In this document: piece by piece, positions 1,852 to 31,376 of the stretch
Numbering within the stretch: the stretch's first letter is position 1
Layout: each line of letters starts with the position of its first letter
Virus record (IMG/VR): IMGVR_UViG_3300025154_001689
Coordinates: 1 to 31,376 of that record
DNA length: 31,376 nucleotides
Source: a virus
Direction: 5' to 3' (one strand)
Made by a program: the position numbers and the translations under genes
The notes under the pieces: model-generated
Told to the model about the DNA's origin: nothing
Database searches by the model: none
Seen by the model: the letters and a program-made list of their open reading frames with translations, nothing else

Positions 1852-1863
1852 ATATGGTATAAT
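1831..1863 (+). promoter_or_regulatory. Extended -10 promoter for the portal/head operon
   Basis: TGGTATAAT (1855-1863) is a TGn-extended -10 box at the terL stop codon. TTGACT at 1831-1836 is a possible -35, but the 21-nt spacing is long, so the extended -10 probably carries the activity. A start point near 1870 would give a roughly 30-nt leader containing the hairpin at 1881-1897. Confidence 0.55.
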
Positions 1864-1880
1864 TAAGACATTAACAATCA

Positions 1881-1897
1881 GAGTTGCGGCCCAACTC
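1881..1897 (+). promoter_or_regulatory. Leader hairpin just before the portal start codon
   Basis: GAGTTG (1881-1886) pairs with CAACTC (1892-1897) around a 5-nt loop, CGGCC. The 3' arm ends 3 nt before the ATG at 1901, and there is no Shine-Dalgarno sequence. The same arm sequence with the same placement occurs before the connector gene at 15797, which suggests a shared control of translation start. Confidence 0.5.
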
Positions 1898-1900
1898 TAA

Positions 1901-4706: not shown

Positions 4707-5633
4707 ATGGCATTCCCAACTGGCACAGAGTCCAGCGTTTCGCTGGCAAGCTATATTCCAGAGATTTGGGGTGAGCGCATTAACGAGTTCTATCGGGCCC
4801 GTTTGGTCGCCGCTCCTTTCTTTACCGACCGAAGTGATGAGTTAGCAGGTGGTGGTGATACGCTTTACACTCCTAATACAACGGAGTTCACCGCTACTGC
4901 TAAGTCTCTTGGTGTCGCCGTGGCCTTAAACAGCCCGACTGATACTAAGGTCACTTTGACGGTAAGTAACTGGTACGAATCTTCATTCGCTATCGAAGAT
5001 AACGATGCGGCTCAAATGAAGCGCTCATACTCGGTTATGGAACGCTACGCCAAGAACTGCGGTTACGCTATCGCGAAGACCCTTGATACAGCGATTGTTG
5101 CTTTGTTTGCCGACTTTAGCAATTCTGTTGGCTCATCAATCACCAACCTCCAAGACTCGGACATTCGCTCGGCGTTTGCTTACCTTGAGGCCAATAATGT
5201 TGACTCAATGGAAGCGGCCTGGTTCTTCCACCCAACCGTTTTCTGGCGACAAATTCAGCGGATTGACAAGTTCTCTCTCGCTGTTAACTCACCAGTTAAT
5301 GACCCGACGGCTAAGCGCCCGGCTGGTTACTTGTACGGTCAGCCCGTATATTTGACCACCCAGATTGCTTACCACGTCCCGTCTGGTACGGCTGGTCGCA
5401 ACAATGCCTTTGTTCACGCTGACGCTATTCACTGGGCAACCTCTCCCTTGGGAGCTGGTGGCTCAGAGGGAGCGATGGTTGGTTCAAGTGGCATTCGGGT
5501 TCAGTCCAACTACATTCCGGAGTATCTCTCAACGGTTACGACCGCTGACATCCTCTACGGTGTAGTGGAAAACCGTGATGTTGCCGGAGTCCGTGTTTTG
5601 ACTCCAGCGACCACTGACAGTAACAATCTTTAA
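4707..5633 (+). CDS. Major capsid protein (HK97-fold type)
   Basis: 308 residues. The start M-A-F-P-T-G-T-E-S-S-V, then Y-I-P-E-I-W-G-E-R-I, then A-A-P-F-F-T-D-R, fits the N-arm and E-loop region of T7/P22-like coat proteins. The core has F-A-I-E-D-N-D-A-A-Q and a spine-helix region L-D-T-A-I-V-A-L-F-A-D-F. The W-F-F-H-P-T-V-F-W-R-Q-I segment and P-A-G-Y-L-Y-G-Q-P-V-Y are typical of the P-domain/A-domain of this group. The position after the scaffold supports it. Size is close to the roughly 345 residues of T7 gp10. It forms the icosahedral shell. The RNA just after its stop codon can fold into competing stems (5624-5697). Confidence 0.9.
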   Translation: MAFPTGTESSVSLASYIPEIWGERINEFYRARLVAAPFFTDRSDELAGGGDTLYTPNTTEFTATAKSLGVAVALNSPTDTKVTLTVSNWYESSFAIEDNDAAQMKRSYSVMERYAKNCGYAIAKTLDTAIVALFADFSNSVGSSITNLQDSDIRSAFAYLEANNVDSMEAAWFFHPTVFWRQIQRIDKFSLAVNSPVNDPTAKRPAGYLYGQPVYLTTQIAYHVPSGTAGRNNAFVHADAIHWATSPLGAGGSEGAMVGSSGIRVQSNYIPEYLSTVTTADILYGVVENRDVAGVRVLTPATTDSNNL

Positions 5634-5697
5634 TCTTTAAGATTGTTGTGGGGTCTGGTCTCCAAAGTTCCTTACCCCACAACTTTGGAAGCAATCT
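5624..5697 (+). promoter_or_regulatory. Competing RNA stems between the capsid gene and the glycan cassette
   Basis: AAGATTG (5639-5645) can pair upstream with CAATCTT (5624-5630), which spans the end of the capsid gene. Its AGATTG part can instead pair downstream with CAATCT (5692-5697), which abuts the ATG at 5698. Inside, TTGTGGGG (5646-5653) pairs with CCCCACAA (5675-5682), and CCAAAGTT (5662-5669) pairs with AACTTTGG (5681-5688). These two share bases and exclude each other. There is no U-run, so a plain intrinsic terminator is unlikely. An attenuator or translation switch is the inference. Confidence 0.5.
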
Positions 5698-5838
5698 ATG
5701 AAAATCAACACAAAACCGAATAAAAAGACCGTATTCATTGACCCCAATCCGGTGAGGGTTAGGGAGATGTTAGATGCTAATGGTAATGTTATTGACTTTA
5801 GGACCAAGCAGATTATCCGTAAAGCCGACCAATCATGA
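5698..5838 (+). CDS. Small hypothetical protein at the head of the glycan cassette
   Basis: 46 residues, ATG at 5698, TGA at 5836, overlapping the next start by ATGA. The sequence runs M-K-I-N-T-K-P-N-K-K-T-V-F-I-D-P-N-P-V-R and ends D-F-R-T-K-Q-I-I-R-K-A-D-Q-S. No family is recognised. The start codon abuts the 3' arm of the stem at 5692-5697, so access to it may depend on RNA folding. It could be a leader peptide or a small virion protein. Its coding status rests on the ATGA coupling to the glycosyltransferase gene. Confidence 0.55.
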   Translation: MKINTKPNKKTVFIDPNPVRVREMLDANGNVIDFRTKQIIRKADQS

Positions 5839-6896
5839 GGGTTTATTTCGTGAGCAGTGGTAGCTTTGGGTGCTATATCGTCAGAAGTCTCCTACCTTTA
5901 GTGGCTAATGGTTGGGACGGCGACCACACCTCCATCCATCCCCTAGAGAAAACTCCCGAGAATAAGGCTTTAGCCGCCCAAAATGCTGATATTGTGGTCT
6001 TCCATCGTCCTGAAGACCCCCGGAAACTCGATTTAGCCCGCCTCCTCAAGAAACAAGGCAAGAAAATCGTGATGGACAATGACGACACCTACAAAGACAA
6101 GGGGTCGATTAAACTAAACACCTACTTCAACGAAGAAAGAGTGCGTAAAGGGTTGGGTGATGTGAATAAAATTGTTGACCAGTTTGTGATTGAGGCTGAT
6201 TTAGTCACAACAACCACCCCATTCTTGGCTGATGAGTATAAAAAGCTGAATAAAGAAGTCGTGGTTTTACCTAATTTCATCGACCCGTTCTATTTTGACG
6301 AGCCGTTACGAAACGAGACTGATGTGGTGCGGATAGGCATCACCGGCTCCCTTGGGATGTCGTCTGATCTAGATGTTTTATCCCCAATCATCAAGCATTA
6401 CGAGAAAGACCCGCGGGTTAAGATAGTGTTCTTCTCGCTTCCGGCCAACCGTGACTCCAATCCCATCATCACTCGGGCTTACGAGAACGAATACAACTTC
6501 CTAGACTCGGTGGATGTCGAGTGGCATCCGTTGGTCAACGCCGACCTCTACTACGACAAGCTCAACTCGCTTAAACTAGACTTAATGGTTATTCCTCGGG
6601 CTGATAACTACTTCAATCGAGCTAAGAGCAACCTGAAGTTTCTTGAATCATCAATGTTCAAAATCCCATGTGTGTGTCAAGGCTTCGCTGATGGTCTAAG
6701 CCCTTATCAAAAAGACGCTGACCACCTAGTGCTCGTAAACGACAACACCCAATGGATACCAGAGATTGAAAAGCTGATTAAAGACAAGGAGAAACGCCGA
6801 GAGATGGGCCGAAAAGCTAAGCAGTATGTGCTTGAGAATTACGATATCAACAATAACGCCCACCTTTGGGAAGAAGCCTATTCTAAACTGCTATGA
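5835..6896 (+). CDS. Glycosyltransferase, GT4-like (GT-B fold)
   Basis: 353 residues. The N-terminal Rossmann-like half has V-Y-F-V-S-S-G-S-F-G and A-D-I-V-V-F-H-R-P-E-D. The linker V-V-V-L-P-N-F-I-D-P-F-Y-F-D is typical of GT-B enzymes. The C-terminal donor domain starts I-G-I-T-G-S-L-G, and the E-x7-E-like region reads F-L-E-S-S-M-F-K-I-P-C-V. The end R-E-M-G-R-K-A-K-Q-Y-V-L-E-N-Y-D is the classic Glycos_transf_1 tail. It should transfer a sugar from a nucleotide donor; the acceptor is unknown. It is the first enzyme of the cassette, coupled by ATGA overlaps on both sides. Confidence 0.85.
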   Translation: MRVYFVSSGSFGCYIVRSLLPLVANGWDGDHTSIHPLEKTPENKALAAQNADIVVFHRPEDPRKLDLARLLKKQGKKIVMDNDDTYKDKGSIKLNTYFNEERVRKGLGDVNKIVDQFVIEADLVTTTTPFLADEYKKLNKEVVVLPNFIDPFYFDEPLRNETDVVRIGITGSLGMSSDLDVLSPIIKHYEKDPRVKIVFFSLPANRDSNPIITRAYENEYNFLDSVDVEWHPLVNADLYYDKLNSLKLDLMVIPRADNYFNRAKSNLKFLESSMFKIPCVCQGFADGLSPYQKDADHLVLVNDNTQWIPEIEKLIKDKEKRREMGRKAKQYVLENYDINNNAHLWEEAYSKLL

Positions 6897-11620: not shown

Positions 11621-12321
11621 TTGCTGGCGTTTTTCATCAAGGGTCAGGTTTAGGCAACCAGCTCCACCGTTACACCGCCACGCGGTGCTTAGCTCTTGAG
11701 AAGGGTTACGATTTCGGGATGATTTACCCCGAGAACTTTAAGGGGACATTTATGAAACTTGATATGGGTGTGCCGGTGGAGAACTTGGCCCACGAATTTA
11801 ATGAAACCAAGGTCTTTAAGGACGGCCACGATGTTAGACCTTATGACCTTAGAATTAAAGAGGTAGAGGACTTTACTTTAATAGACGGAGAGTTTCAAGA
11901 CCAGCGTTACTTTACTACTCTGGATAAGAGTTGGTTTGAGGTTGAACCCCTTGATTTACCAGACGACCTTTGTATTATCAATTTCCGCGGTGGGGAATAT
12001 GTTGGAGTATCAGACCTCTTTCTTCCCAAGTCTTATTGGGATAAAGCAATCGCAATGATGCCGGGGATGAGGTTTGAAGTCCACACTGACGACCCTCACA
12101 CCGCCAGACAATTCTTCCCCTATCCGATTATCCACGACATCTCTCTAAATTGGCGGTCTATCCGTTATGCGAAAAACCTGATTATCTCCAACTCCAGCTT
12201 CGCTATCCTCCCAGCTTTAATGAGTGGGGCTAGAGTGCTGGCCCCTAAGTTTTGGGCCGGATATAACAAAGGCCTCTGGCAACTGCCCCAAAACGAATAC
12301 CCTCAATTTACCTATCTATGA
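11617..12321 (+). CDS. Second GT11-like (fucosyltransferase-type) protein
   Basis: 234 residues. G-S-G-L-G-N-Q-L-H-R-Y-T-A is the N-terminal GT11-like motif. CIINFRGGEYVGV matches the H-V-R-R-G-D-Y region in altered form (F-R-G-G-E-Y), and LIISNSSFAILPALMS matches the N-S-S-F-S-W-W region. The layout is that of a GT-B enzyme using GDP-linked deoxy- or L-sugars. The changed second motif (one of the two arginines replaced by glycine) suggests altered donor binding. With the gene at 6893 this gives two such enzymes in one cassette, in line with at least two L-sugar linkages. Confidence 0.7.
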   Translation: MIAGVFHQGSGLGNQLHRYTATRCLALEKGYDFGMIYPENFKGTFMKLDMGVPVENLAHEFNETKVFKDGHDVRPYDLRIKEVEDFTLIDGEFQDQRYFTTLDKSWFEVEPLDLPDDLCIINFRGGEYVGVSDLFLPKSYWDKAIAMMPGMRFEVHTDDPHTARQFFPYPIIHDISLNWRSIRYAKNLIISNSSFAILPALMSGARVLAPKFWAGYNKGLWQLPQNEYPQFTYL

Positions 12322-24202: not shown

Positions 24203-26975
24203 AATACTTTTAGCTTTAATAGTTTCAACGATTATCATTCTTGGTTTGGTTCAGTTAACCCATGCTCAAATCACTGTCCCCCAAGGTGGCACTGGTTCTT
24301 CCACTGTCGCCTCGGGCCAACTGCTCTGGGGCGACACGGCTTTAAGACTTGGTTCCTCCATCAACCTTAAATGGGACAAAGTGTGGAACAGGCTAATAGT
24401 CTCTAACTTAGCCGTTACGAGTTCAACCTCTACCAACGCCACCACCACCAACCTTGCCGCTACTACCGCTTCCACCACCGACCTAAATGTTTCCAAGAGT
24501 TTAACGATTCAAGTCTTAACCGGCGTTCTCCAAGCGATTAACGGCCTAGTCTCCTCCACCTCCACCATTTCCGAGAACTTTATTGACGCTAACATTGCTC
24601 GAGACTCCGAACTCCACTCGTCCGTGACCGTTACCGACTCTAACACCGTAGACTTGACCCTTGTGGGCCAAGATTTGACCGCCGATGGCCTTTACACCGC
24701 CGGCGATGGTTTAACCCTCACTACGGCTGATTTTGACTGCGACACGGCCTCTGGTTCGGTCTTTGGTTGTCTCCTCTCGACTGACTGGACTATCTTCAAC
24801 AACAAAGTCTCCTCCTCGTCTCTCCCCACCTCTCAAGCTAATCCTTTGTGGTGGAACGGGACAGTAATCGCCCCCACCTCCACGCCCACCTTCGCCGCCT
24901 TCCACGCCACCTCCACCACCGCTTCCTCCACGGCCGGAGTTATCTCTCTGTCTAAAATTGTCACCTCCGCCACCAGTACCGGCACGAACGGCTTCGATAT
25001 CTCCGCCGGTTGCTTCGCGATAAACGGCGTGTGTGTTGGCGGGAGCGATAACGGCACCGTTTCCTCTGGCCTGGCCGGCCAATTGGCTTATTATGCTTCA
25101 GACGGCACCACTGTTTCCGGCACCACCACTGGAGTGATTACCGCCGGCCGCTTCACCGCCACCACTTCGGTGGCCAGTATCTTACCTTACGCTTCAAGCA
25201 CACACATCTCTGTTTCAAATGGTCTAACCGTGACTGGGGGAAGGTTGGGGGTGGGTAATAGCAATCCGTCTTATGCTTTGGATGTAACGGGTGACATCAG
25301 AACTTTAGATGGGTCGTTAAAAATCCAAGACACCACCAACGGTTTAATAAGTATTAGTGACAATGGTCTCAGAAGTTTTGAGTTAGGTGTTAGTTCTAAC
25401 AGTGACTATAATTTTAGTTTTATAAATTATGCTGACGGGGTATTAAAGGTTGGGATTGGGACGACCACGCTAGCCGATAAATTAACTATTGAGGAAGGCA
25501 ATTTGCGATTTAATTACGCTCAATCAAACGGAACAGATGGAACTTTTGGTTACATTGATTGGGCACAAACTATGGGGTCAGCAGAGTCGGTGGCCAGGAT
25601 TGAGGCTGTTAGATATCCTGGTAGTTGGGATTATGCCGGTTTGCGATTTTTTACCGCCAACGGAACTATTGCTGAAAGGATGAGAATATCCGATGTTGGT
25701 AGTGTTGGCATCGGCACCACTTCGCCTTCGGCCAACTACAAACTTTCCATCGGCGGTGGTAACCTCCACATCGGTGGCTTCATCACCTCCACCTCGACTG
25801 CCGCTTCTCGACTGCCCTACGCTTCGTCCACTTCAATCACCGTGTCGGGCACGGCTTATATTTTGCCCCTTAGTGGTAGTGCCGAGGCTATCGCTCTATC
25901 GACCGGCTATACCGGCGCAAATTACAAAAACAATATCTATACTTCAGTCAACACGGGAACTAACTCGTCTAATTATCTTCGGTTTGATATTTCTAATTCA
26001 GCCGGGGCCAGTTCGGAAGTGATGAGGATAAATGGTGATGGGCGGGTCGGGATTGGCACCACCACTCCTGGCTCAAGGCTAGCTATTCAAGGTAATTTAC
26101 AGGTTGTTGGCCCGTCGGTAATTGGTGGTGGCATAGCGACAATGTTAAATGGTTCAAGCACTAAAATTTCAAATGGAGCATACGGTGCTTCTGATAGTGG
26201 TGGAACTGGGGCGGATGTCTATATTGCAAATGGTGGTAACGCGGCCAATGGTGGGGATAGTGGTGGTGCCGCTGGAGATATTTTTCTTGCTCAGGGTGGT
26301 GAGGAAGAAGTCGCCGGAGTGGGAACCGATGGTGACGATGGTAATGTTTATATAGGTAGCCACCTAACAAACATTCGTAACGCTGTTTTTAACTTATTCG
26401 GTGGAATGAGAATCGACACCGCTTCAACAACCGCCTTCCGTATTGTTAATGGAGCTACCCCGATTATAACAGTAGACAGCACCAACTCTCGACTAGGAAT
26501 CGGTACCTCGACACCCGGCAACATTCTTTCCCTGGGAAACACAGGTATTCAAACTATCAACTTCCGAGTAAATGCCACCTCCACTTTTGCCTCCTCTACC
26601 AACTTAACCAGTGGTTGTTATGCAATAGGAGGAAGTTGTGTTGGGGTGACAGAATATCGGGCTTGGTCTATGGCCCCAACTACAACGGCGTGGACCGCTA
26701 CCACGACTGATATGTTTTTAAGCTCGGCACCGACTAATGAGAATTGGGAATGGGCGGAATGTTCAACTAACGCCGGCACTCTTGATATTGTGGTGTCTGA
26801 TGGAACTAACTTCTTTAACTATATGATTGGGGTCTCATCTACACCTTCCCATTTCACTTTCTCTACCAACAACAGTTTCAGCGCCGGAGAAAAGAGATTT
26901 ATCAGGGCGGGCAACCCAGCCTCATCTCCATCTTATTTTGGTTGTTCTTTTAAGCTAAATGTTCCACAACAATAA
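24195..26975 (+). CDS. Large exported repeat protein, CPR-type adhesin or fibre
   Basis: 926 residues. The start MRKILLALIVSTIIILGLV, followed by Q-L-T-H-A-Q, is a signal peptide with an A-Q cleavage site. Then comes V-P-Q-G-G-T-G-S-S-T-V, a phage-fibre-like unit, and S/T-rich spacers (T-T-N-L-A-A-T-T-A-S-T-T). Five V-G-I-G-T-T-S-P-type units lie in the middle (two of them variants: V-G-N-S-N-P and I-G-T-S-T-P). Small Cys pairs recur: G-C-F-A-I-N-G-V-C and G-C-Y-A-I-G-G-S-C. This is the style of large surface proteins known from Parcubacteria. The C-terminal domain has S-S-T-P-S-H-F-T-F-S. It may be a fibre tip, or a protein placed on the host surface. The signal peptide is odd for a virion protein. 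Confidence 0.75.
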   Translation: MRKILLALIVSTIIILGLVQLTHAQITVPQGGTGSSTVASGQLLWGDTALRLGSSINLKWDKVWNRLIVSNLAVTSSTSTNATTTNLAATTASTTDLNVSKSLTIQVLTGVLQAINGLVSSTSTISENFIDANIARDSELHSSVTVTDSNTVDLTLVGQDLTADGLYTAGDGLTLTTADFDCDTASGSVFGCLLSTDWTIFNNKVSSSSLPTSQANPLWWNGTVIAPTSTPTFAAFHATSTTASSTAGVISLSKIVTSATSTGTNGFDISAGCFAINGVCVGGSDNGTVSSGLAGQLAYYASDGTTVSGTTTGVITAGRFTATTSVASILPYASSTHISVSNGLTVTGGRLGVGNSNPSYALDVTGDIRTLDGSLKIQDTTNGLISISDNGLRSFELGVSSNSDYNFSFINYADGVLKVGIGTTTLADKLTIEEGNLRFNYAQSNGTDGTFGYIDWAQTMGSAESVARIEAVRYPGSWDYAGLRFFTANGTIAERMRISDVGSVGIGTTSPSANYKLSIGGGNLHIGGFITSTSTAASRLPYASSTSITVSGTAYILPLSGSAEAIALSTGYTGANYKNNIYTSVNTGTNSSNYLRFDISNSAGASSEVMRINGDGRVGIGTTTPGSRLAIQGNLQVVGPSVIGGGIATMLNGSSTKISNGAYGASDSGGTGADVYIANGGNAANGGDSGGAAGDIFLAQGGEEEVAGVGTDGDDGNVYIGSHLTNIRNAVFNLFGGMRIDTASTTAFRIVNGATPIITVDSTNSRLGIGTSTPGNILSLGNTGIQTINFRVNATSTFASSTNLTSGCYAIGGSCVGVTEYRAWSMAPTTTAWTATTTDMFLSSAPTNENWEWAECSTNAGTLDIVVSDGTNFFNYMIGVSSTPSHFTFSTNNSFSAGEKRFIRAGNPASSPSYFGCSFKLNVPQQ

Positions 26976-29496: not shown

Positions 29497-29556
29497 TAAG
29501 GAGGAATTACTAGTCTAACCAAATGGCTTATAATAGAATTCTTAATCGCTTGGGCG

Positions 29557-29901
29557 TTGATGTCTGTTACCGAACCCGCCCAAGCAAGCACCACGCCTAT
29601 AATAGAACCTCCGAGCGTAGAAGAGATGATTAAAAGTTACGATTGGGATTACGATATTGCCTTAGCAATCGCTAAGTGTGAAAGCTCGTTAAACGCCGGG
29701 GTGGTGAATGATAACCCTGCGACCAGGGACTATTCAGTGGGAATTTTCCAAATCAACCTCTACGGTGATAATGCCTTCTCAAGGCCGAGCGAAGAATGGT
29801 TAAAAGTTCCAGCCAATAATGTCTACTACGCCCACCAACTCTATCTTAACGGGGGTTGGGGCCACTGGCGGAACTGTTTGAATAAGGGACTGGTCGAATA
29901 G
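29557..29901 (+). CDS. Exported lysozyme / lytic transglycosylase-like protein
   Basis: Given from TTG 29557, the first standard start codon in frame (114 residues). The core A-I-A-K-C-E-S-S-L-N, with the catalytic Glu, then D-Y-S-V-G-I-F-Q-I-N, A-H-Q-L-Y and G-G-W-G-H-W-R-N-C, is that of small SLT/lysozyme-like cell-wall hydrolases. In frame upstream of 29557 the codons read T-K-W-L-I-I-E-F-L-I-A-W-A-L and lead into A-Q-A-S, a good signal peptide. Translation therefore probably begins upstream, perhaps at ATT 29506 next to the AAGGAGGA. The ATG at 29523 is out of frame. It would give a second wall enzyme besides the M23 protein, used at entry or lysis. Confidence 0.75.
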   Translation: MMSVTEPAQASTTPIIEPPSVEEMIKSYDWDYDIALAIAKCESSLNAGVVNDNPATRDYSVGIFQINLYGDNAFSRPSEEWLKVPANNVYYAHQLYLNGGWGHWRNCLNKGLVE

Positions 29902-29905
29902 TCCC
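29886..29905 (+). other. Hairpin over the lysozyme stop codon
   Basis: GGGACT (29886-29891) pairs with AGTCCC (29900-29905). The TAG stop (29899-29901) lies partly in the 3' arm. A second stem, AGCAAAAG/CTTTTGCT (29914-29921 with 29931-29938), follows. They may protect the mRNA end before the terminator. Confidence 0.35.
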
Positions 29906-29942
29906 CTAACATTAGCAAAAGAACTTTCGACTTTTGCTTGGT

Positions 29943-29985
29943 AACCAAAGAAGCCACCCGTAAAAAGGTGGCTCTCTTGGTTTTT
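29943..29985 (+). terminator. Rho-independent terminator after the lysis/lysozyme genes
   Basis: AACCAA...GCCACC (29943-29958) pairs with GGTGGC...TTGGTT, with a 3-nt internal loop and an 8-nt apical loop, CGTAAAAA. It runs into TTTTT (to 29985). It ends the + strand virion gene block. Confidence 0.8.
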
Positions 29986-29989
29986 AGAT

Positions 29990-30189
29990 TTAAGGTGTCA
30001 ATATTTTGTTGGATTTTGAACGATTGCAAGTGAAACATAAAATTTGCAGATTATTTATATCATTTGTCCCCCCTTTAGACACTGGGATGATATGATCAAT
30101 AGTCAATTTCTTCTTCTACTATTTATCCTATCTCTGTGGCGATGATAATACTCAAGAGCATATTGCCTCTGTTTATCAGGATTATTCAT
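29990..30189 (-). pseudogene. HNH endonuclease gene, frameshifted
   Basis: On the minus strand, ATG 30189-30187 opens M-N-N-P-D-K-Q-R-Q-Y-A-L-E-Y-Y-H-R-H-R and reaches a TGA after I-N-S-R-R-R-N. In the -1 frame from the A/G-rich repeat just before, the reading continues [16 protein letters not shown], then [17 protein letters not shown], to TAA at 29992-29990. D-H-I-I-P, then N-L-Q-x-L-C, then C-N-x-x-K, is the HNH core. So a single -1 shift in AGAAGAAGAAA separates two halves of one small HNH nuclease. It is either a decayed mobile gene, or one that needs slippage on the A-rich run. Confidence 0.7.
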
Positions 30190-30195
30190 CACTTA

Positions 30196-30223
30196 ATTAT
30201 AGCAGAACGCTTGAGTAAAGCAA
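30196..30223 (-). promoter_or_regulatory. Minus-strand promoter for the HNH gene, leaderless geometry
   Basis: Read on the minus strand, TTGCTT (30223-30218), a 16-nt spacer ending TGC, then TATAAT (30201-30196), then 6 nt and the ATG at 30189. The extended -10 (TGn) and the 6-nt distance match the leaderless promoter at 19925. Confidence 0.6.
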
Positions 30224-30323
30224 AACCCCCAGAAATGGGGGCTTGGCTAGATATCGGATTTCACTATAGGAGGATTATTTTACGATATTCCTCAAAACGC
30301 TCTAAGGTGGACAAGCCACCAAC
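30217..30323 (-). ncRNA. Candidate structured small RNA
   Basis: A promoter on the minus strand (TTGTGT, 17 nt, TATCAT at 30335-30330, preceded by TGG) and the terminator at 30241-30217 bound about 105 nt with no good open frame. In RNA sense it holds GGTGG-CTTGT-CCACC, GAGGA paired with TCCTC, and ATATCG paired with CGATAT, before the terminator stem. This promoter-stems-terminator design is typical of small RNAs. No known family is recognised. Possible roles are antisense control or a guide-like RNA; nothing in the window identifies a target or partner. Confidence 0.45.
30222..30241 (-). terminator. Minus-strand terminator
   Basis: On the minus strand, CCCCC (30241-30237), loop ATTTCT, GGGGG (30230-30226), then TTTTGCTTT. 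It would end a transcript coming from the right. Its tail overlaps the -35 of the HNH promoter that follows. Confidence 0.6.
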
Positions 30324-30576
30324 GCTCTTATGATACCACAATAGGTTATAGAACACAAGGCATACTATGCAAGCATATAATGCCTGCCAAAGTTATCCCC
30401 AGTTTGGCCTTGCAAGGTTTGCCTGCCTAATATACACTCTAGTTAGAAGTTGAAAACACGAGCTGGTACGGGGTTAGACGGTATCGGGGTTATGAGGCAC
30501 TACATAGTCCTCTCTCTTATACCACAACGGCCAAGTTGGTGTAATAACTTCTTTAATAGCTAACTCAATAAACACT
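30242..30576. other. Gene-free stretch with dyads and direct repeats
   Basis: I see no protein gene here. Besides the small-RNA candidate, it has GGCAT...ATGCC (30360-30384) around TGC-AA-GCA, and GCCAAA/TTTGGC (30386-30391 with 30403-30408) around TTATCCCCA. The palindrome CCTTGCAAGG and a direct repeat TGCCTGCC (30381-30388, 30420-30427) follow. A second minus-strand -10-like box, TGGTATAAG, lies at 30521-30516, in the same T-T-G-T-G-G-T-A-T context as the box at 30335. It may be a control or replication region; TTATCCCCA is one base off a DnaA box. Confidence 0.35.
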
Positions 30577-30687
30577 ATGTCTATTGATTTTGAACAGGGC
30601 GATGACCATATGTCTGCTTTAGACGCGGAAAGTCGCGAGGCCGAGCTGGTGGACAGACAAGATTATCAGCGTGAAATAATGGACTAA
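30577..30687 (+). CDS. Small acidic hypothetical protein
   Basis: 36 residues, ATG 30577 to TAA 30687. It begins M-S-I-D-F-E-Q-G-D-D-H-M and ends R-Q-D-Y-Q-R-E-I-M-D, and is very acidic. It stands 2 nt before the next gene, in the tight style of this module. No family recognised. Small acidic early proteins often bind host proteins, but this is not shown here. Confidence 0.5.
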   Translation: MSIDFEQGDDHMSALDAESREAELVDRQDYQREIMD

Positions 30688-30689
30688 TT

Positions 30690-30884
30690 ATGGACGACAT
30701 CTATTCATCCCAAGACTTGATTGCGATTAAGAAAGATCAAAAGCAGAGGATTAAGGAAGCTCACCGCAAAATGTTCGGCGGTTTCAAGTTAGACAAGTTT
30801 GAGGTCGCAGTGTTTATTCTCACAGTTATTGCGGCCACTGTTTTCTGGAACATTATCACTTATTACGAAGCTGTTAAATACTAA
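30690..30884 (+). CDS. Small single-span membrane protein
   Basis: 64 residues. A charged N-terminal half (I-K-K-D-Q-K-Q-R-I-K-E-A-H-R-K-M) is followed by a membrane helix, V-A-V-F-I-L-T-V-I-A-A-T-V-F-W, and a short end Y-Y-E-A-V-K-Y. It lies between small genes of the post-terminator module, spaced by 1-2 nt from both neighbours. No family recognised. Confidence 0.6.
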   Translation: MDDIYSSQDLIAIKKDQKQRIKEAHRKMFGGFKLDKFEVAVFILTVIAATVFWNIITYYEAVKY

Positions 30885-30885
30885 A

Positions 30886-31020
30886 ATGATTAAATACAAG
30901 CTTGAGATTTATGAGGACACAACCGGCGAAGTGCTGGAAGTGATGGACACGGCCGATTTTGACAACCTTAACATCGCCAGACGACACCATGAACAAACCG
31001 AACACCAAACTGAAGAGTAA
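30886..31020 (+). CDS. Small hypothetical protein
   Basis: 44 residues from ATG 30886, 1 nt after the previous stop. The frame is open upstream to 30799 only as an overlap. It starts M-I-K-Y-K-L-E-I-Y-E-D-T-T-G-E-V-L, a beta-hairpin-like pattern, and ends in H-H-E-Q-T-E-H-Q-T-E-E. The next gene starts inside it at 30989. No family recognised. Confidence 0.5.
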   Translation: MIKYKLEIYEDTTGEVLEVMDTADFDNLNIARRHHEQTEHQTEE

Positions 31021-31123
31021 AATCCTAATCTTGTGGGCGAAAGGCAAGAGTAAACGAGCCATCGCCGAGAAATTAAACATTAACCGGTCGCTAGTCCAAT
31101 ACTATATTAAAAAATATGCCTAA
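30989..31123 (+). CDS. Small helix-turn-helix protein
   Basis: 44 residues. K-S-K-I-L-I-L-W-A-K-G-K-S-K-R-A-I-A-E-K is the first part of a homeodomain-like HTH, followed by L-N-I-N-R-S-L-V-Q-Y-Y-I-K-K. This is the form of transposase/resolvase-type and small phage regulators. It overlaps the previous gene by 32 nt and the next by 8 nt. Being so short, it is only the DNA-binding unit. A regulator of the neighbouring early module is a fair guess. Confidence 0.6.
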   Translation: MNKPNTKLKSKILILWAKGKSKRAIAEKLNINRSLVQYYIKKYA

Positions 31124-31376
31124 ATTAAAAACCATCAAAATCCAAAATAAGGATTATGTCCTCGTGTCCGAGCGCGTCCTCTACTTCAATGAGGTATTCA
31201 AAAATGGCTCAATCGTGTCCGAGTTGTTGCCCCAAACCGATAACACCCAAGTTTTCATCAAAACCAAAATCACACCAAACTGCGACCAACCAGACCGCTA
31301 TTTCACCGGCCACGCACAAGAGGTGGTGGGGGATGGGATGGTCAACAAGACCTCGGCTTTGGAGAATGCGGAAACG
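31116..31376 (+). CDS. Partial gene, possible single-strand annealing protein
   Basis: 87 codons from ATG 31116, running off the window without a stop. It starts M-P-K-L-K-T-I-K-I-Q-N-K-D-Y-V-L-V-S-E-R-V, then Y-F-T-G-H-A-Q-E-V-V-G-D, and ends V-N-K-T-S-A-L-E-N-A-E-T. The last stretch matches the T-S-A-x-E-N-x-E-T-S-A-x-G-R-A-L pattern at the core of phage single-strand annealing/ERF-like recombination proteins; only its first half is visible. If so, it opens the replication/recombination module. It starts 8 nt inside the HTH gene. Confidence 0.45.
   Translation, partial: MPKLKTIKIQNKDYVLVSERVLYFNEVFKNGSIVSELLPQTDNTQVFIKTKITPNCDQPDRYFTGHAQEVVGDGMVNKTSALENAET

Follow-up and report, generated by a model that had tools for sequence, protein, structure and literature searches.

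Does the minus strand between the lysis genes and the rightward gene block of this virus encode a small RNA with a promoter and a terminator of its own? The window, by which we mean the whole stretch of DNA that was analysed, comprises a linear virus record, 31376 bases long, whose plus strand carries terminase, head and lysis genes. The lysis gene ends at 29901, and the rightward block begins at about 30577 with a 36-aa frame (recognised by eye), followed by 30690-30884 and others; no supported plus-strand gene lies between them, and it is here that the candidate unit sits. A preliminary description had proposed some 105 nt without an open frame, and indeed no credible ORF crosses the approximately 107 nt concerned: within 30217-30323 the minus strand holds none of at least 50 aa. 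Opposite the unit, the only plus-strand ORF of that size is a 65-aa frame (30136-30333) that has no Pfam match and lies antisense to an HNH remnant. Upstream of the terminator, searched along the minus strand as far as the window end, no recognisable gene was found; two ORFs of at least 50 aa occur there (30874-31080 and 31209 to the end), both opposite plus-strand ORFs and both without a Pfam match. On the lysis side, inspection by eye of the SLT lysis gene shows, upstream of its listed TTG start (29498-29557, plus strand), an AAGGAGG that resembles a ribosome site and a signal-like stretch in the same frame; an ordinary start codon is absent there.

All the parts named in the preliminary description (the -10, the -35-like box, the 17-nt spacer, the stems, and the G/C terminator with its T-run) were located where they had been placed. 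Leftward transcription would start near 30323, 7 nt past a TG-extended (more fully, TGG-extended) -10 element, TGGTATCAT (30330-30338, minus strand), that differs from TGNTATAAT by one mismatch. The -35-like box, TTGTGT (30353-30358, minus strand), has three of six matches and stands at a spacing of 17. Two short hairpins (1 and 2) precede the terminator in the unit 30217-30338, and at this intrinsic terminator, CCCCC-ATTTCT-GGGGG-TTTTGCTTT with a T-run (30217-30241, minus strand), transcription would stop, ending at 30217 and yielding an untranslated RNA of about 107 nt directed away from the rightward block that begins near 30577. The second, similar promoter reported further up is present as well: TTGTGGTATAAG lies at 30527-30516 of the minus strand, and its extended -10-like site TGGTATAAG (30516-30524, minus strand) would, if used, give a precursor of about 290 nt. 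Adjoining the -35-like box is an imperfect palindrome seen by eye, GGCAT-N3-ATGC-N2-GCAT-N3-ATGCC (30359-30384), which is operator-like and may function as such; a small HTH protein encoded at 30959-31123 could read it. Nearby on the plus strand, the 9-mer TTATCCCCA (30393-30401), which recurs in the window at 6378, is also found near the unit of a relative, G002, discussed below. It resembles a DnaA box; this was judged too little to claim a replication origin.

Downstream of the terminator, the unit was said to be stacked on a second one that serves an HNH gene. This holds for the promoter-like site: the -10-like TGCTATAAT (30196-30204, minus strand) begins just past the terminator tail and is followed, 6 nt on, by the ATG that opens the HNH frame. 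The gene itself (29993-30189, minus strand) is broken and partial. Its frame from 30189 stops after 28 residues (N part 30189-30103), and the HNH signature resumes in another frame (C part 30115-29993), spanning positions 13-47 of the 47-position Pfam HNH model, with the start of the domain missing; full-length HNH kin are two proteins of 144 aa each in locus L107. Regulating a broken and partial HNH gene would therefore be a poor purpose for the RNA. Another hairpin (29951-29974), with T-rich tails on both strands, separates the HNH remnant from the lysis gene.

The rarity of such an arrangement was gauged with shuffled sequences. With a unit defined as a TG-extended -10 (at most one mismatch) plus a terminator with five GC pairs, thresholds that were chosen after the site had been seen, 1 of 2000 dinucleotide shuffles of 29902-30689 holds a unit while the real stretch holds two; the second overlies the HNH remnant and ends at the hairpin at 29951-29974. 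The whole window likewise holds two, against a mean of 0.017 across 60 whole-window shuffles. Most of this rarity is due to the terminator, which is far from what chance would give: shuffles average 0.006 such terminators. By itself, the promoter is weak: 20% of shuffles place a comparable -10 in the 170 nt that precede the terminator, and 2.6% hold at least two such sites in 310 nt. A generic scanner missed both elements, scoring the promoter at 8/12 versus a limit of 9 and overlooking the terminator, presumably because pairing of its stem can continue into the T-run.

The promoter is better judged by what this phage places before its other genes. All five perfect plus-strand TGNTATAAT sites (1855, 11123, 15744, 19925, and 29488) lie 6-60 nt before a gene start; by comparison, the share of plus-strand positions with a gene start at most 70 nt ahead is 7.7%, the genes having been chosen greedily (35 ORFs on the plus strand, 3 on the minus strand). 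Of two perfect sites on the minus strand, that at 30204 stands 6 nt ahead of the HNH-remnant ATG and that at 26471 precedes no ORF. Judged from this placement, TGNTATAAT is the predicted promoter element of this phage, and the candidate -10, one base off the consensus, is plausibly of the kind used before its genes. A count before ORFs of at least 25 aa (6 of 7 sites) was set aside because it says little: 78% of all positions on the plus strand and 52% on the minus strand would qualify. At both 19925 and 30204 the start codon stands 6 nt past the -10, a spacing that suggests leaderless messages.

For the comparison with relatives, 166 terminase kin were found in viral contigs, and the best 80 loci of the 166 were taken. 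One contig (L006, or G001) is near-identical: it spans the window to about 24.96 kb and adds 5.3 kb ahead of its start, and the small-RNA region is outside its reach. As L006 supplies its own N-terminus for the first ORF, we rejected a circular genome (last and first ORF joined) and regard the window as a fragment. At the other end, the gene at 31116-31376 (plus strand) is truncated by the window end and matches phrog_11717; used as a query, its protein found two distant relatives, the M23 and SLT proteins found none each, and an early phosphoesterase of L006 found six, including the contig of L006 itself. When 12 window proteins were sought in the fetched loci, those of the window end had few matches, and the kin are therefore mosaic in the end region. 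Another relative, G002 (L043; IMGVR_UViG_3300049712_000015), has an 84% terminase. Among species genomes, a terminase relative is encoded on three contigs, one of them binned as Candidatus Nomurabacteria, and among 297 genomes of the order of that bin only the bin itself gave a terminase match at E 1e-60. We can only infer a Patescibacteria host, because the support is one bin and the contig is possibly mis-binned. Two further features of these loci were seen by eye. In the window (1855-1900) and in L019, L030, L050, and L054, a gene downstream of the terminase lies behind a TATAAT-type promoter, with a hairpin close to its start codon; in the four L loci the hairpin is terminator-like. In L019 (2145-2220, plus strand) a TTGACA promoter is followed by about 60 nt of interleaved, nearly complementary stems, AACGGCTTAG/CTAAGCCGT and GAGGAATGAG/CTCACTCCTC, which could fold into a pseudoknot with a T-run at its end.

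Conservation of the stems and promoter among relatives had been named as a test of the small RNA, and the sequence was found in no relative searched. In agreement with the earlier remark that no known family is recognisable, Rfam gave no match at gathering scores over the whole window (group I intron, HEARO, and others included); below them it gave, in 29950-30700, one weak match, to rnk_pseudo (RF01772; 24.7 bits, E 0.078). No copy was detected by blastn against phage records and plasmid records, nor in 35 records chosen among the 80 kin loci, and the best nhmmer hit over the kin loci had an E of 0.81. In viral contigs, a first RNA pattern matched four contigs, with surroundings unlike the RNA, and a second pattern matched none. 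The covariance model R1, built from one sequence entered twice, was run over 80 of 124 sources (the window with 79 of 123 loci; 1.1 Mb), and returned the window and then one match at E 2.4. Of the sampled genomes of the Nomurabacteria-bin order, 3/297 were hit weakly by blastn at E 0.01, two at the terminator only and one at a 28-base stretch of the body; R1 likewise gave weak hits in 3/98 sampled genomes at E 0.01, aligning best at the terminator. A sequence common to L107 and L002, AGAGCGTTTTG, was taken as chance. Nor did the proposed search for targets give anything convincing: across 45 start regions, drawn from the window and the initial 5.7 kb of L006, and with three segments tested, the smallest share of shuffles that paired as well was 0.037.

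Folding separates the terminator from the remainder. The 107-nt RNA from 30323 folds at -32.0 kcal/mol, with a z of -2.8, and once the terminator is removed z is -0.93; outside the terminator, structure thus gives no grounds for assuming a functional RNA. Unexpectedly high stability is confined to the terminator stem, hairpins 1 and 2 being at chance level. Folded as the plus strand, the stretch has a still lower z (-4.5), and 27 of 1044 equal-length windows on both strands reach a z of -3 or less. If the RNA is taken from 30330 (30330-30217), z is -3.77, stem 1 being lengthened by bases upstream of the inferred start.

Although its sequence is unlike, one relative offers a unit of like place and size. 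A scan for units outside called genes in 120 loci and the window (1.42 Mb, partly redundant) gave 12 rows, two of which belong to the window and the other ten to nine loci. Of these ten the G002 unit (L086:10992-10885, minus strand) stands out as a strong one; it consists of TTGACG-16-TATTAT with a TG, followed by a long terminator hairpin; it folds with a z of -5.66, as one long 3' hairpin. By the measure of the scan, the G002 unit and the window unit are 104 nt each. Both stand on the strand opposite to the terminase, the former flanked by small genes in a leftward block and by rightward genes leading to the terminase, the latter by the leftward remnant and the rightward block; this is a single case, found post hoc. 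The two share a TG-extended -10 and a terminator, and homology between their RNAs was rejected, as 45/500 shuffles score as high. An 18-mer of the G002 RNA occurs among viral contigs in its own record only. Elsewhere in L086, another HNH gene (5599-6063) lies some 5 kb from the unit, and a tRNA-like element with a long variable arm was seen by eye at about 11920-12022 (plus strand), on which ARAGORN makes no call.

What, then, is the unit? Our tentative preference, held with somewhat less than even confidence, is for a small, terminated, lineage-specific leftward noncoding RNA of the phage control region, OOP-like in layout. The transcription of the unit, or the RNA itself, would tune the neighbouring early block or host targets. 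In favour of a small RNA are the rarity of a combined promoter and terminator in shuffles, and the lack of a recognisable minus-strand gene that the unit could serve; the placement of TGNTATAAT before this phage's gene starts, the second similar -10 upstream, the operator-like palindrome at the -35, and the equally long unit of G002, in a comparable region and opposite to the terminase, also appear to point this way. Against it are the absence of a sequence or structure homolog where we searched, the ordinary hairpins 1 and 2 together with the lower z of the plus strand, the dissimilar sequence of the G002 unit, and the lack of a clear target, as well as an apparently imperfect promoter (a -35 of only 3/6, a -10 one base off). 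Of the minus-strand small RNA first proposed, the terminator is real and a short unit is plausible, whereas the promoter taken alone is weak and stems 1 and 2 are at chance level. On sequence grounds, we would call the terminator real, the promoter plausible, and the small RNA possible.

Comparison with known systems places the unit only loosely. OOP of phage lambda lies in the early control region and has a terminator. OOP RNA of lambdoid phages is described as short, as having its own promoter, and as antisense to cII (PMC12197685). The window unit is likewise a short phage RNA with a promoter of its own, if a putative one; nothing supported is encoded opposite it, so that it falls outside the OOP-like antisense class, and likeness to OOP was sought by the Rfam scan only. 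TIGR arrays are described as small RNAs of phages and Patescibacteria, at times with an HNH-bearing protein (PMC12045711). They are tandem alternating repeats, whereas the stretch 29900-30720 has no repeated units of that sort, its one direct repeat consisting of two 11-nt copies. In the literature on Patescibacteria with phage small RNAs or virus promoters, no title or abstract among the matches listed concerned such an RNA, and one paper, on TIGR-Tas arrays, dealt with small RNAs of phages and Patescibacteria.

A rival account fits nearly as well as the OOP-like RNA, though we think it on balance unlikely: the terminator alone would be functional, as a roadblock to stray leftward transcription before it meets the lysis genes head-on, and the RNA would be a by-product. 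The strength of the terminator beside an RNA that is otherwise no better than chance agrees with this, as do the absence of a copy of the body in the kin searched and the second hairpin with T-rich tails at 29951-29974; what a mere roadblock does not call for is a suitably spaced promoter-like element of the type typical of this phage, or a unit of equal measured length in G002. It is improbable that the unit is an attenuator leader before the HNH gene, in which the 5' GGUGGCUUG would pair with CAAGCCCCC of the 5' arm of the terminator. This duplex has -13.8 kcal/mol, a value matched by 1.07% of 3000 shuffles, the pairing having been spotted by eye before it was tested, and it belongs to the minimum-energy fold while the transcript is 86-94 nt long, with the terminator still open; the full-length fold, however, prefers the terminator by 13 kcal/mol. 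The rnk_pseudo leader, which the unit matches weakly (E 0.078), has a similar layout of about 108 nt ending in a G/C terminator with UUUUGCUUU, but the 24.7 bits of this match compare with a gathering score of 55, and no intact gene lies directly downstream in the window, where the HNH remnant is broken and has a promoter-like site of its own. Slightly less probable still is a relic, a promoter and terminator left by a deleted minus-strand gene or a mobile HNH module, as the adjacent HNH remnant without part of its domain and the mosaic kin at the window end might suggest. Against a relic, the terminator and -10 elements look intact, and G002 has a like unit without a match to this HNH beside it (the matches listed being in L107 and L050), although its other HNH gene lies some 5 kb away.

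Returning to the small terminated RNA, a broader generalisation is conceivable, albeit quite speculative: in Patescibacteria phages, the point where one gene block gives way to the next may harbour a small leftward RNA, terminated and some 105 nt long, whose position, strand, and length persist while its sequence changes fast, and which would regulate the early block or the host. If transcribed, the unit would be a candidate regulatory RNA in a virus with one Nomurabacteria-binned contig among its terminase kin. At present a candidate, it would have its value as a test case for control-region RNAs of uncultured phages.
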